This document shows, piece by piece, positions 34,575-40,400 of a stretch of 64,000 nucleotides of DNA (positions are counted from its first letter, which is position 1; each line of letters opens with the position of its first letter). The stretch spans positions 1 through 64,000 of the forward strand of contig JAJRVT010000155.1 of the NCBI GenBank assembly GCA_024277175.1, read 5' to 3'. A program made the translations under genes and the position numbers. The notes under the pieces were generated by a model. The model did not search any database. It worked only from the letters and a program-made list of their open reading frames with translations, and had not been told where the DNA came from. This DNA is from Chloroflexota bacterium. Its GTDB lineage: Bacteria; Chloroflexota; Anaerolineae; Caldilineales; Caldilineaceae.

Positions 34575-37500
34575 TCAGTTTTCAATTTTCGTCAAATCAT
34601 CTTCATACCTCACCAACACCCGATAGCCACCGTTCCACGGCTTCTCTTTGGCGAATTGCCCCACCACGCCGGTCACGATGAAGCGCTCGCCCTTCTCCAC
34701 ATAGGGACGCTTCCAGCCCAGGCTGCTGCGCACAGTGACGCGCACCGGCTCCACGTCAGGCCGATCCGGATCCGCAAGGTAGATGCTGTCCCCCTGCCAG
34801 CCGCTGACCACACCGGAAAAGCGAACCAGCCGCCCTTCCAGGCTTTCGCCGATCTCGGCGATGGTCACCAGCAAAGGCGCCAGGGGAGCGCCGCCCTCGA
34901 TGCGCCACACCTGGGCGGGATCGTCCAGCCGGATCTCCATCTCGCCTCGGAATGACTTGGTCACGCCCCGCACCAGCACCCAATCTCCCTCCGCCAGGGG
35001 CGGCAACTGCCCATGACGCAGGTAAACCCGGACGCCAAGCCCGCCGGTGACGCCATCGCCGGCCGGGTCGGCCACATACATGCTGGCGTTGAAAAGCCCC
35101 GGCGGCGCAATAACCACGCCCCGGAATTCCACCCAGCGCTCCAGCCCCTGCCGTTTGGCCATGGTCAGAGATCCTGGCGAACCGCTGGCCTGCCCTTCCC
35201 CGGGATCGATGGTCTCGACCGGGTGCTTGCCCGTGCCATGCATGCCCAGGTTGATCTCGCCGGGCGTGGGGACCGTGTCGTGCTGCCAGTCGCCGCTCTC
35301 CTCATCGCGGCCGATGGAGCCGCCGGGCGCGACGGACCACCCGACCGCGTCCACCTCCCGTCCCTCGGGATCGAGCAGGCGCACATAATCATCCTGATTG
35401 TTCATATTCAGGCGGCTCTCGCTGCGCCAGATGACCAGCCGTTGGCCACCGCCGATGAAGGCGCCGCCGCCAAAGGTGTAGCGTCGGCCAGGCGTCTCAT
35501 CGCCTCGCCGATCGCTCAACTGCCAGCCTGCCAGGGAAGCCGGTCCCGGGTCCAGGTTTTCCAGTTCGATGAACTCATCATCGTTGTCCACCACGCCGTC
35601 GCCGTTGTAATCCAGTTGGGGAGCGGGCATGATTTCACTGATACGCACCTGGCCCGCCACACCTGGACGCACGAAGATGGGGGCAGTCACGGCAAAATCG
35701 CCGTCGGTCTGGGTGGCGACCACGAAGAGGCGCGCGCCGGGGATGGCCGCCGTACGCACCCGCCAATGCCCATCGGCAGGCGGGACGTCCAACTGCTGGA
35801 TCGGCTGATCATTCTGCCAAAGGGTCAACCCGGCCACGTCGCCGGCCGTATCACCGTAGCGAATGTCCAGCGTGACCTCGTTTGCCGGCGGAATCGCGCT
35901 CCCCATCCAGCGGACGAGGCCGTCTTCCATCTCCGCGCGCAGGGCGAGCCAGATCCCCGGCCGGCTCGTCAGCCAGCCCCGGCGCTCGATCAGGGCCGTG
36001 GTCAGACCGAAGACGTCGCGACTCTGCACGACCAAACCGGTGTAACGGGGATACAGGCTCAGCCGGCCGGGCAGGCTGGGGTTGGCGTCGCCCGCCGGCA
36101 GCAAAGGATAATCCCGGCCAACCCAGGCGTCGATCAACGGCTGGAGTTCACCCGGTGCGTACACATCGTCACCCGACGCGGCGATCACCGGCCAGTTATC
36201 CGGCGCGGGCTCGGTCAGCCACTGGGCATAGGCCGACGCCTCACCCAGCCATAACTGGAGTTCCCTGGCGTTGGTCGCCTGGGTGGCCCGCGGTGCGTAG
36301 ACAATGGCCTCTTCACCATCGCTCCCATTCCAGCGCCAGGCCGGCAGCGTCAGCGCCGGGCCGCCTGGCGCGGCCGTCACCTGGTTGTCATCGGCCAGCG
36401 CCAAAAAATCAAGTCCCTCGGCGGCCGCGGCAGCGAGCAGATACGCGGGCGGCGCGGTGAAGCCCTGGCTGAAGTTGCTGCGCGCGCCCAGGCTGCCCCA
36501 GACAGCGACCATGCCATCATCCAGGGCCGGATTGTCGTGGACCAGGGATGCAGGCAAAACCACAGAAACGAAGGGATCCGGGGGGGCGAAGAGCCAGCGC
36601 TGGCGTTGATCATCGGTATCCATCGCGCTTACCTGGCCGGGCGCGTCCTGGAGGCTGAAGCCGGCCGGCGGGCGCAGAGGACCGGTCAGGTCCAGGGCAG
36701 CGTAGTCGCCATCACCGTACGCGACAGCGTCGGCCAACTCGCCCGCGGGGTTGAGCAGCGCCACCTCATCGCCGCCGTCGTTGAGCGCCCACTTGCCGGA
36801 AGCTAGGCCAGGCAGGCGCTCCAGCACCGGCGCGGGATCACCGCTCTCTTCGAACTGGGCGTCGGCGGCGCGAGCGAACGTAGCCCGGAAGGCTGCACCG
36901 TCGCGTGCGATCACGAAACTCGCGCCGGGGGCCAGAGTCGCGTCCCCGGGCAGCGCGTACATGCCTTCACCATCGCCTGGACGCTCGGCGTCACCCACCC
37001 GCCAGCCATCCAGTCCAAGGGGAGCATCGCCCACGTTGCGCAGGACGATGAACTCTTCATCAGCCGATTTGAACGCGACCTCGTCGATACGTAAGGGAGA
37101 CGGCGCTGGTGAAGGAGACCAGACATCGCCAGCCGGTGGTGGCGTGGTGGTGGGCGAAATGGTCGGTGAAGCAGTGGGTGAAGCGTCTGGTGTGGGAGAA
37201 ACGAACGCCGTGGGGACAGGCGTTCCGGATCCTGCATAAGCCTGACCAGGGCTGCCCAGATCGCCGGCCGAGCCGGGCCAGGGCGTCTGCGCCGTCACCC
37301 AGCCGTCGTCTGGAGCGAAGCCAGTTCGCTCTAGACTCGCCCCCTTGGTCGTGGAGAGGCCGCCATCGCCCCACACCACCCGGTCCACTTCCAGGTCTCC
37401 GGGTGCGAGCAGCAGGAGTTCGTCATCGCCGTTGGCCAAGCTGATGGAACTGTAGACGTAGGCCACGCTCACGCCGCCGTTGGCCGCGTAATCCCCGTTG

Positions 37501-40373
37501 CGGGCGATGACCGCGTAGCCCCCCGGCTCGACGACCAGGTCCGCGGCGATGGTGTGGCCGTCGCTGCCCAAATCAGCGATACGCCAGCCGCGCAGGTTCA
37601 CCGCTGCATCATCAGCGTTGTACAACTCGATCCATTCGCCGTCGCTGTCGTTGACCGCGTCCGGATTGGCCAGAAATTCGCTGATGAAGACCCGCGGCGG
37701 TGGGCCGACAATGGGCGGAACCGTAGGCGCTTCCGTCGGTCCCGGCGTAGGCGTGCTTGCCCCCGTCGGCGTGGGCGTGGGTAGATCCGGTCCCGGAACA
37801 TAGGCTTGACCAGGGCTGCCAAAATCTCCCGCCGAGCCGGGCCAAGGCGTTTGCGCGGTCGCCCAGCCATCACCGGCCGCGAAACCCGTTCGCTCCAGGC
37901 TCGCGCCTTTGGTTGTCGATAGCTCGTCATTCCCCCAGATTACCCGATCCACCTCCACATCGCCAGGCGCAAGCAGCAGAATCTCGTCGTCTCCGTTGGC
38001 CAGGCTGATCGAACTGTAGACGTAGGCCACGTCCACGCCACCGTTGGCCGCGCGATCCCCGTTGCGAGCGATGACCGTGTAGCCACCCGGCCCGATGACC
38101 AGGTCCGCGGCGATGGTGTGGCCGTCGCTGCCCAGGTCTGCGATCCGCCACCCGCGCAGGTTCACGGCCGCGCCGTCAGCGTTGTACAACTCGATCCACT
38201 CGCCGTCGCTGTCGTTGACCGCGTCCGGGTTGGCCAAAAATTCGCTGATGAAGACCCGCGGCGGTGGGCCGACAATGGGCGGGACCGTCGGTTCGCTGGT
38301 GGGTTCCGGGGTGACCGGTGTGGCGGTTGGCAGCGGAACAGAGGTCGCGGTTGGCCCGGGAGTAGGCGTGGCGGTCGGTGGCGGCTCGACATAGGCCTGG
38401 CCGGGGCTGCCAAAGTCGCCGGCCGAGCCAGGCCAGGGCGTCTGCGCGGTCACCCAACCGTCGCCAGCCGTGAAGCCGGTCCGCTCCAGGCTCGCGCCTT
38501 TGGTTGTGGACAGGTCGCCATCGCCCCAGATCACCCGGTCCACTTCCACGCCGCCGGGTGCGAGTAGCAAAAGTTCGTCGTCTCCGTTGGCCAAGCTGAT
38601 CGAACTGTAGACGTAGGCCACGTCCACGCCACCGTTGGTCGCGCGATCCTCGTTGCGGGCGATGACCGCGTAGCCGCCCGGTGCGATGATCAGATCGTCA
38701 GCGAGGGTGTGGCTGTCGCTGCCCAGGTCGGCCATGCGCCAGCCGCGCAGGTTCACCGCTGCGTCGTCGCCGTTGAACAGCTCGACCCACTCGCCCGCGC
38801 TGTCGTTGACCGCATCCGGGTTGGCCAAGAACTCGCTGATGAAGACCTGCGGCGGTGGGCCGACAATAGGCGGGACCGTCGGTTCGCTGGTGGGTTCCGG
38901 GGTGACCAGTATGGCGGTTGGCAGCGGAACGGACGTCATCGTCGAACCCGGTGTGGGCGTGAAAGTGGACGGCGGCGGAACATAGGGTTGGCCGGGGCTG
39001 CCCAGGTCACCGGCTGAGCCAGGCCAAGGCGTGCTGGCTGTCATCCAGCCGTCATCAGGGCCAAAGCCGATCCGCTCCAGGCTGGCTCCTGACGTGACAG
39101 AAAGGCCGTCATCGCCCCAAGTCACCTGGTCCACGGGAACGCCACCCGGCGCGAGCAGGCGGATCTCATCACTGCCGTTGCCCAGACTCACGCCCTGGTA
39201 GACGTAGAGGGGAACGACGCCGCCATTGCTGGAGCGCTCCCCGTTGCGGGCCAGCACCGCGTATTCACCGGGTTGGAGCCACACATCGGCGTCGATGAGA
39301 TGGCTGTCGCTGCCGAAGTCCGAGAGGTACCAGCCGCGCAGGTTCACGGTCCAGCTTTCGGCGTTGTAGATCTCGATCCACTCGCCTTCGTTGTCGTCGA
39401 CCGCGTCCGGGTCGGCCAGGAATTCGCTGATGAAAACCTTGGGCGGTGGGCCGGGCGTGGCGACCGGAGTGGGCGTGGCGGTGGGTGGGATAGGAATGGG
39501 AGTGGCCGTGGGTTCAGGCGTGGGCGGCGGTGCATAGGCCTGGCCGGGGCTGCCAAAATCGCCAGCCGAACCAGGCCAGGGTACGTTGGCCGTGACCCAA
39601 CTGTCCCCACCTGCGAAGCCGATTCGCTCCAGGCTGGCGCCTTTGGTGACAGAAGGAACGCCCTCGATCCCCCAGACCACCCGGTCCACTTCTACATCGC
39701 CAGGCGCAAAGATCAGTATTTCATCGTCACCATTGGCCAATTTTACAGAATTGTAACTATAGACATAGGCTACGTTCACGCCACCGTTGGCGGTCAAGTC
39801 ATTATTGACGCCGAGAACGAGATACTCACCCGGCTGGATCCAGACGTCATCGTCAATGGTGTATCCGATGCTGTCCAGGTCAGCCAAACGCCAGCCGTTG
39901 AGATTGATGGCCATACTGTCGCCATTGTAAAGCTCGATCCATTCGCCCTCGCTGTCATTGACTGCGTCCGGGTTGGCCAGAAATTCGCTGATAAAGACCT
40001 GCGGCGGTGGACCAGTCGGGGGCGGCGTGGGCGTCTCACTCGGCGTGGGCGTAGGAGTCGGCGTATCAACCGGCGTGGACGTGGAGGTAGGCGTCTCAGT
40101 CGGGGCAGGAATAGTCTCCCACGGAGACGTAGGCACAGGGCCTTCAGGAGATATATCAGGAAGAAGGGGTGCGATCTGTCCCCGGGGCTTGACCATCAGG
40201 GACGCGACCGGCGTGGGGAATGGCGTGGCGGCGTGGAGCGTTCCCGCCGGGCCGGATTCGGCCGCCAGGGCAAGTAGGAGAATGAAGGCAAACGCGCCGA
40301 CGAAATGAAGACGTAAAACGTGAAGACGTGAGGCGTACGTGCGCGAAAAGCGGAGAAAACGAGCAACCATCAT
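34575..40373 (-). CDS. Giant exported protein with lamin-tail-domain repeats, a degenerate PHP/CehA-like domain and a C-terminal OB-like domain
   Basis: A very large secreted protein (about 1930 aa). A signal sequence is followed by T/P/V-rich linkers. Five near-identical lamin-tail (LTD) units start with VFISEFLANPDAVND and contain GEWIELYN and LRGWRIADLGSD. A sixth, divergent LTD-like unit begins at IDEVAFKSADEEFIVLRN. Around residues 1290-1580 comes a CehA/McbA-type PHP-like region whose metal ligands are mostly replaced. A seventh LTD (RISEIMPAPQLDYNGDGVVDNDDEFIELEN) and a C-terminal OB-like domain (YVADPAGDGV, VLVRGVTKSFRGEMEIRL) end the protein. LTDs occur in extracellular nucleases and surface proteins; no nuclease domain is present. 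It is probably a cell-surface or matrix protein. Start ATG 40373 or 40370. Confidence 0.8.
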   Translation of the reverse strand: MMVARFLRFSRTYASRLHVLRLHFVGAFAFILLLALAAESGPAGTLHAATPFPTPVASLMVKPRGQIAPLLPDISPEGPVPTSPWETIPAPTETPTSTSTPVDTPTPTPTPSETPTPPPTGPPPQVFISEFLANPDAVNDSEGEWIELYNGDSMAINLNGWRLADLDSIGYTIDDDVWIQPGEYLVLGVNNDLTANGGVNVAYVYSYNSVKLANGDDEILIFAPGDVEVDRVVWGIEGVPSVTKGASLERIGFAGGDSWVTANVPWPGSAGDFGSPGQAYAPPPTPEPTATPIPIPPTATPTPVATPGPPPKVFISEFLADPDAVDDNEGEWIEIYNAESWTVNLRGWYLSDFGSDSHLIDADVWLQPGEYAVLARNGERSSNGGVVPLYVYQGVSLGNGSDEIRLLAPGGVPVDQVTWGDDGLSVTSGASLERIGFGPDDGWMTASTPWPGSAGDLGSPGQPYVPPPSTFTPTPGSTMTSVPLPTAILVTPEPTSEPTVPPIVGPPPQVFISEFLANPDAVNDSAGEWVELFNGDDAAVNLRGWRMADLGSDSHTLADDLIIAPGGYAVIARNEDRATNGGVDVAYVYSSISLANGDDELLLLAPGGVEVDRVIWGDGDLSTTKGASLERTGFTAGDGWVTAQTPWPGSAGDFGSPGQAYVEPPPTATPTPGPTATSVPLPTATPVTPEPTSEPTVPPIVGPPPRVFISEFLANPDAVNDSDGEWIELYNADGAAVNLRGWRIADLGSDGHTIAADLVIGPGGYTVIARNGDRAANGGVDVAYVYSSISLANGDDEILLLAPGDVEVDRVIWGNDELSTTKGASLERTGFAAGDGWATAQTPWPGSAGDFGSPGQAYVPGPDLPTPTPTGASTPTPGPTEAPTVPPIVGPPPRVFISEFLANPDAVNDSDGEWIELYNADDAAVNLRGWRIADLGSDGHTIAADLVVEPGGYAVIARNGDYAANGGVSVAYVYSSISLANGDDELLLLAPGDLEVDRVVWGDGGLSTTKGASLERTGFAPDDGWVTAQTPWPGSAGDLGSPGQAYAGSGTPVPTAFVSPTPDASPTASPTISPTTTPPPAGDVWSPSPAPSPLRIDEVAFKSADEEFIVLRNVGDAPLGLDGWRVGDAERPGDGEGMYALPGDATLAPGASFVIARDGAAFRATFARAADAQFEESGDPAPVLERLPGLASGKWALNDGGDEVALLNPAGELADAVAYGDGDYAALDLTGPLRPPAGFSLQDAPGQVSAMDTDDQRQRWLFAPPDPFVSVVLPASLVHDNPALDDGMVAVWGSLGARSNFSQGFTAPPAYLLAAAAAEGLDFLALADDNQVTAAPGGPALTLPAWRWNGSDGEEAIVYAPRATQATNARELQLWLGEASAYAQWLTEPAPDNWPVIAASGDDVYAPGELQPLIDAWVGRDYPLLPAGDANPSLPGRLSLYPRYTGLVVQSRDVFGLTTALIERRGWLTSRPGIWLALRAEMEDGLVRWMGSAIPPANEVTLDIRYGDTAGDVAGLTLWQNDQPIQQLDVPPADGHWRVRTAAIPGARLFVVATQTDGDFAVTAPIFVRPGVAGQVRISEIMPAPQLDYNGDGVVDNDDEFIELENLDPGPASLAGWQLSDRRGDETPGRRYTFGGGAFIGGGQRLVIWRSESRLNMNNQDDYVRLLDPEGREVDAVGWSVAPGGSIGRDEESGDWQHDTVPTPGEINLGMHGTGKHPVETIDPGEGQASGSPGSLTMAKRQGLERWVEFRGVVIAPPGLFNASMYVADPAGDGVTGGLGVRVYLRHGQLPPLAEGDWVLVRGVTKSFRGEMEIRLDDPAQVWRIEGGAPLAPLLVTIAEIGESLEGRLVRFSGVVSGWQGDSIYLADPDRPDVEPVRVTVRSSLGWKRPYVEKGERFIVTGVVGQFAKEKPWNGGYRVLVRYEDDLTKIEN
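37233..40010 (-). repeat. Array of five LTD-encoding tandem repeats, 560-595 bp each
   Basis: Units end at about 40010, 39450, 38860, 38268 and 37703 on the plus strand. The conserved block around ttcgctgatgaagacc and gcggcggtgggcc is almost identical at the DNA level in the inner units, while the T/P-linker segments vary in length and sequence. This is the pattern of recent duplication or gene conversion. Confidence 0.9.
40307..40345. repeat. Family A repeat inside the signal-peptide coding region
   Basis: acgtaaaacgtgaagacgtgaggcgt matches the family A units at 491-540 and 2809-2899. Read on the minus strand it encodes the residues TYASRLHVLRLH that precede the hydrophobic core of the signal peptide of the giant exported protein. 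Confidence 0.7.
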
Positions 40374-40400
40374 TGCACCCCCCGAGGGATAGAAGCACAA

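Follow-up and report, generated by a model that had tools for sequence, protein, structure and literature searches.

Intact metal sites are widespread across the PHP superfamily. The site is formed by nine ligands with the consensus H, H, D/H, H, E, H, C/H, D/N and H, and in variant PHP domains, Arg is the residue that most often takes the ligand's place at six of the nine sites (PMC3666897). The same paper describes the PHP domain of E. coli Pol III as one that has lost ligands, kept its fold and assumed a structural role. In metallohydrolases of the CehA/McbA type (NF038032, CehA_McbA_metalo), the PHP barrel is joined to a C-terminal beta-sandwich, and BVU_3505 (3e38) is a two-domain PHP-like predicted phosphoesterase whose chain of 343 residues is too short to hold lamin tail domain (LTD) or OB parts as well. 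Among exported proteins, ExeM of Shewanella is an EEP nuclease that also carries an LTD and a pair of OB-like parts, and its activity depends on the OB part (PMC6085458). We found no paper in the open-access literature that joins the lamin tail domain and the PHP domain, and none that joins the PHP domain and pseudoenzymes.

We analyzed a window of 64,000 nucleotides from a Chloroflexota bacterium of the family Caldilineaceae (GCA_024277175.1, contig JAJRVT010000155.1, positions 1 to 64,000), which contains on the (-) strand an ORF of 1941 aa with a TTG start (34575..40400; all features described below are on this strand). The ATG at aa 10 (about 40373) is the likelier start, and the protein is predicted to be exported, as its N-terminus, judged by eye, resembles a signal peptide. 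Pfam PF00932 (lamin tail domain) matched the protein in seven stretches (E 1.5e-132). Five of these are LTD repeats 1 to 5 (39570..39998, 39018..39437, 38427..38846, 37836..38255 and 37272..37691, respectively), which were also defined by DNA repeat comparison, and the others are an LTD of a variant type directly before the PHP unit (36681..37085) and an LTD directly after it (35259..35648). The five repeats are found in 37225-40013 at a spacing of 561-591 bases with Pro/Thr-rich linkers between them, and the LTD repeats of family D1 share 71-91% DNA identity with the reference copy. The whole CehA/McbA-type unit (aa 1240-1580, 35661-36683) consists of a degenerate PHP barrel (aa 1297-1481, 35958..36512), which was delimited by a match to 2anu_E and by the profile of intact relatives, and a C-terminal Ig-like beta-sandwich (aa 1482-1580, 35661..35957), which holds WMGS and DGDFAVTAP. 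The sandwich assignment is based on secondary structure, on the match of model residues 241-341 to beta-sandwich domains and on its being part of NF038032. The protein ends in a tail of two tandem OB-like folds (aa 1734-1941, 34578..35201), assigned from the predicted structure and Foldseek. Upstream of the gene is one resembling PurH, and 4HBT, MurJ and other genes are found nearby; at orthologous loci, these neighbours showed no recurrence beyond weak SDR matches, and they give no hint of a partner or an operon.

An earlier note, made from the sequence alone, had placed a degenerate domain of CehA/McbA-type PHP layout at 35650-36510. The strings that it quoted all lie within this ORF, at aa 1298-1314 (36459-36509), 1324-1339 (36384-36431) and 1468-1494 (35919-35999); the place was right, whereas the real domain is slightly longer, given the barrel and sandwich limits above. 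The layout itself was borne out by the match to NF038032, by the match to a profile of intact relatives and by a PHP fold in the predicted structure. NF038032 matched the domain alone at E 6.4e-7 and the whole protein at E 7.2e-5 (NCBIfam), and the best stretch was the C-terminal half (model positions 197-314 against domain residues 220-338). The score of the domain was 29.1 bits, under the family cut-off of 80 bits, and Pfam gave no PHP match in the window domain or in the whole 1941-aa protein, both of which would be expected if the resemblance to PHP were a chance likeness. However, a profile built from 34 relatives with all nine ligands and zero degenerate sequences, albeit relatives that were chosen with an earlier profile (A3) that did include degenerate rows, gave the window domain 83.9 bits, compared with 9.1 bits for the best of 2000 shuffles of that domain. 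For the first 230 residues, which are mostly barrel, the corresponding values were 31.3 and 5.1 bits.

A search of solved-structure sequences gave zero matches with the window domain alone and, with alignment A3, matches to PHP proteins that cover motif I, together with weak ferritin rows. The PHP unit was also modelled from 17 aligned sequences (mean pLDDT 83.7, pTM 0.86); of five models, two reached good confidence (83.7 and 79.3), and the remaining three scored 51-56. The best structural match was BVU_3505 (3e38_B, Z 16.8, 3.5 Å over 196 residues, 14% identity), followed by 2anu_E (Z 15.4, 2.7 Å over 170 residues, spanning model residues 58-242), endonuclease Q (Z 13.3) and E. coli Pol III alpha (2hnh, Z 9.9), whereas unrelated beta-sandwich matches to the C-terminal part began at Z 9.1. 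Foldseek also ranked 3e38_A first (E 6.3e-6), with a TM-score of only 0.41. Moreover, intermediates exist, for example L030, which matches NF038032 at E 3.2e-14. Chance likeness was therefore ruled out by the shuffle test together with the fold match, and we regard its probability as practically nil.

The metal ligands were read from a MAFFT alignment, with L099 as the reference, against the pattern HHDHEHHDH. The window domain has none of the nine ligands, or at most one if Asn is allowed at site 8, as in the consensus of PMC3666897. The residues at sites 1 to 9 are G, R, G (or Q, according to where a gap of one residue is placed), D, R, E, T, N and S, the position of ligand 7 being the least sure owing to weak alignment in that stretch. 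At the motif I site (36462..36497), GSLGARSNFSQG stands in place of the GDLHxHTxYSDG of intact relatives, and ligands 1 to 3 correspond to G1305, R1307 and, depending on the alignment, Q1312 or G1313. At the TDH site (36387..36392), D1337 is retained and the His of ligand 4 is replaced by D1338. The Glu of ligand 5 and the His of ligand 6 in the GxE...GH site (36309..36335) are replaced by R1356 and E1364, respectively, and in the SDxH site (36075..36083, LPAGDANPSLPG), the Asp of ligand 8 and the His of ligand 9 are replaced by N1440 and S1442. The proposal in the earlier note that the metal residues are replaced was thus confirmed by alignment to intact relatives for all nine sites, or for eight if Asn is accepted at site 8. 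A separate CehA/McbA-like ORF of 675 aa without an LTD match was found in the genome of the window (L001, G000:C323); its HxH (WGMIHAHAELSDGSG) is intact and a TEH motif is present.

Compared with the CehA/McbA metallohydrolases, the window domain shares the barrel, the C-terminal beta-sandwich, a significant profile match and the PHP fold, but differs in its replaced ligands and in its score below the family cut-off. Compared with E. coli Pol III alpha, it is likewise a PHP domain that keeps its fold after loss of metal ligands; however, five of nine ligands are lost in that cytoplasmic polymerase, whereas eight or nine are lost here, in an LTD/OB protein that is predicted to be exported. The features of a dead PHP domain, namely a kept fold, lost ligands and purifying selection (see below), are all found in the window domain, and the likeness is one in kind, not one of shared descent as part of a polymerase.

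The PHP domain was detected in 22 of 36 other genomes of the same family (about E 2e-32 or better), and the 14 without it include all eight genomes of genus g9 and all four of g16 in that sample. When genome contigs were searched with alignment A1, 17 loci were obtained, for which the named records were Caldilineaceae, including Litorilinea aerophila MAGs; a first scan with a single sequence gave zero matches, and one scan of viral contigs gave no relatives. In the orthologs, the domains are arranged as LTD(n)-LTD-PHP-LTD-tail, although the LTD after PHP was undetected in L063 (the same gene as L048), and their varying LTD number points to recent expansion and contraction of the repeats. In a sample of the whole phylum, only four of 400 genomes, the window's own among them, matched at E 1e-20 or better. 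In a class-wide profile search, 172 of 396 genomes matched at E 1e-6 or better; as five first-look candidates were scored per genome, this search may have missed intact paralogues in Caldilineaceae genomes. From the strongest rows listed in this search, 60 loci (L093-L152) were fetched, and the proportions of ligand classes given below are consequently not a census.

We tabulated the ligands of 73 near-full-length domains (at least 130 bits) from 87 matching ORFs. The ORFs set aside were L140, which is partial, L026, which duplicates L088, and 12 that scored below 130 bits. Because L023 and L061 represent one gene, the 73 rows amount to 72 distinct domains. All nine ligands were present in 34 rows, eight in 12 and seven in two; five, three and two ligands were found in one row each, one ligand in three rows and none in 19 rows, including the window. 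In 11 of the 12 rows with eight ligands (L093, L094, L096, L097, L113, L116, L123, L124, L126, L129 and L138), the last His is changed to Glu, Gln or Asp, and in L101 the first His is changed. The last-His variants may have an altered, not lost, metal site and may represent a step toward full loss. The exact order LTD-PHP-LTD-tail was observed in the classes with nine, eight and zero ligands. Seven loci from other Anaerolineae (L098, L099, L100, L105, L106, L107 and L109) encode intact LTD-PHP-LTD-tandem-OB proteins, for which an exported phosphoesterase or nuclease architecture is predicted; L098, L099, L100 and L106 share the domain order and homologous flanks with the window protein but have all nine ligands. 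At L147 (G458 C1), which retains two of the nine ligands, LTD and PHP pieces occur in several frames and the sequence contains 16 N bases, indicating a decayed gene or poor sequence.

A phylogenetic tree was built on the flanking LTD and the tail only, with the PHP domain excluded; it did not include L063 and L094, whose C-terminal flanks are short, or any row in which PHP is not followed by a tail. From a second tree of 43 rows, L147, L130, L031, L121, L129 and L023 were removed as doubtful or long, L147 on account of its N bases and its LTD pieces in several frames. In the flank tree, the Caldilineaceae rows grouped together (96/85), and L030 and L095, which have zero and one ligand, adjoined L096 and L097, which have eight ligands and belong to the same family, f16 (100/99), within intact rows. 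The label intact or degenerate changed four times on the best flank tree, and at least two changes were forced by the starred branches. A single clade of all degenerate rows was rejected with both 49 rows (p 8.5e-11) and 43 rows (p 3.3e-6). These results show that the metal site was lost at least two separate times. The change counts carry no direction, and we take the intact site as ancestral because it is present across the PHP superfamily (PMC3666897). The closest neighbours of L030/L095 and of L130 are rows with one changed ligand, a pattern that suggests stepwise loss. The intact relatives of the same architecture and the tree also support the earlier suggestion of derivation from a metallohydrolase; the window domain almost certainly descends from a PHP metallohydrolase and lacks its metal site, and it is the Caldilineaceae-branch end state of an exported LTD(n)-PHP-LTD-tandem-OB family.

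We then considered the residues that now occupy the barrel in the 19 Caldilineaceae rows. Columns with Asp, Glu, His or Cys in at least 70% of these rows are only H80, D98 and D172 of the domain; H80 is found in 14 rows and is Ala in the window itself, D98 (the Asp of TDH) in 18 rows and D172 in 16 rows. As to whether the ligands might be provided by other residues, a condition under which the earlier reading would fail, no substitute cluster of His, Cys, Glu or Asp is conserved in the barrel of these rows. That the domain is still a hydrolase, acting via other residues or without metal, would agree with the retention of D98 and D172 and with a dN/dS that remains low, but since the canonical positions are replaced and no conserved cluster of His, Cys or Glu serves as a stand-in, we consider it very improbable. 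The former ligand sites have themselves acquired a pattern: site 1 is Gly in 17/19 rows, site 3 Gly in 16/19, site 5 Arg in 15/19, site 9 Pro in 14/19 and site 8 Asn (8/19) or Gln (7/19), ligands 2, 4, 6 and 7 are variable, and new Trp residues at domain positions 116, 237 and 289 are fixed in all 19 rows. This pattern could reflect a repurposing of the old pocket as a specific site for phosphate, nucleotide or glycan, in which Arg would stand for the metals and new Trp would line the wall. The Arg at ligand 5 and the invariant Trp 116 point in this direction, as do the adjacent OB tail and the Arg known as a metal substitute in variant PHP domains (PMC3666897); however, the second dead clade (L030, L095) has different replacements, and we judge such a specific site to be unlikely.

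In comparisons of hand-picked and non-independent pairs, many with saturated dS (>1), the dN/dS (NG86) of the PHP unit was 0.112-0.356 in eight degenerate pairs and 0.105-0.171 in six intact or nearly intact pairs, and the value for PHP exceeded that for the C-terminal flank in 6/8 and 1/6 of these pairs, respectively. The low dN/dS, together with the contrast between PHP and flank, indicates that the degenerate domain is conserved with some relaxation: it is retained under purifying selection, and its lower constraint relative to the flank fits partial relaxation equally well. The latter leads to the alternative that the domain is a passive spacer with an empty pocket, which persists since without it the adjacent LTD and OB parts would no longer be folded or spaced correctly. 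The relaxed constraint in six of the eight dead pairs and the variability of former ligand positions 2, 4, 6 and 7 in the dead clade agree with such a spacer, whereas an overall dN/dS far under 1 does not, and three new Trp fixed in 19/19 rows and an Arg at ligand 5 in 15/19 are unlike a decaying pocket. We consider the passive spacer unlikely.

Taken as a whole, the best explanation, to which we assign a probability of about 0.65, is that a relative of the PHP metallohydrolases has become a protein that scaffolds or binds but does not catalyse; for the scaffold or binding role of the degenerate PHP protein taken by itself, we see even odds. The PHP stretch would presumably serve as a binding domain, for a ligand that is likewise presumed. 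The ancestor would have been a surface phosphoesterase or nuclease of ExeM-like build (LTD, OB pair and catalytic domain) with PHP as the catalytic part, the intact relatives are presumably still surface phosphoesterases or nucleases, and in the Caldilineaceae form, cutting would have been lost. The PHP unit might then be a rigid scaffold between two LTDs and possibly also a surface for binding to which Arg 1356 and the newly fixed Trp contribute. Binding and reach at the cell surface may come from the LTD array and the OB pair, the latter probably with nucleic acid as its ligand.

The tail model comprises two OB-like folds (pLDDT 87.7), for which the best Foldseek matches were DNA-binding proteins with tandem OB folds, namely Thermus SSB (2fxq, E 5.4e-6) and the telomere protein Teb1 (3u58, E 1.7e-5), followed by HIN tandem-OB domains and POT1; with a second structure aligner, most of the listed matches were single OB domains from aminoacyl-tRNA synthetases and from MCM. 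By analogy with ExeM, nucleic acid is proposed as the ligand of the tail, and the OB pair probably binds it. The window protein has in common with ExeM (PMC6085458) an LTD and tandem OB on an exported protein; however, the catalytic part of ExeM is EEP and its domain order is different, whereas the window protein is without any catalytic site. The ExeM-type model NF033680, for which over 1300 bits are expected, gave the window protein 31.5 bits, with the best stretch in one LTD.

As a more far-reaching and tentative proposal, which we would not expect to hold in full, ExeM-like surface phosphodiesterases may have become, at least two times independently, non-cutting holders of extracellular nucleic acid or another polyanion, with a pocket remodelled by Arg and Trp and an LTD array of variable copy number that sets reach or avidity, that is, nuclease-derived adhesion or matrix proteins. 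The inactivation of PHP domains as such is already known, and what is new here is recurrent inactivation within a conserved exported architecture. The family offers a natural series from enzyme to pseudoenzyme in one architecture, which runs from proteins that keep the whole site, through others in which one ligand has changed, to two or more independent clades that have lost the metal site completely, and it allows one to ask why an exported protein retains a dead hydrolase domain. A metallohydrolase annotation of these giant LTD proteins would be wrong in Caldilineaceae and plausible for their relatives.

The idea that a second, ExeM-like nuclease makes up for the lost activity, in the way suggested for Pol III with its epsilon subunit, was not supported: NF033680 matches at E 1e-40 or better were found in 8/24 genomes with the dead form and 3/25 with an intact or nearly intact form (Fisher's test, which ignores kinship, p 0.095). 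The eight Caldilineaceae genomes G004, G005, G011, G012, G013, G020, G022 and G023, which have a dead PHP protein, contain long ExeM-like matches in ORFs of 847-1725 aa.
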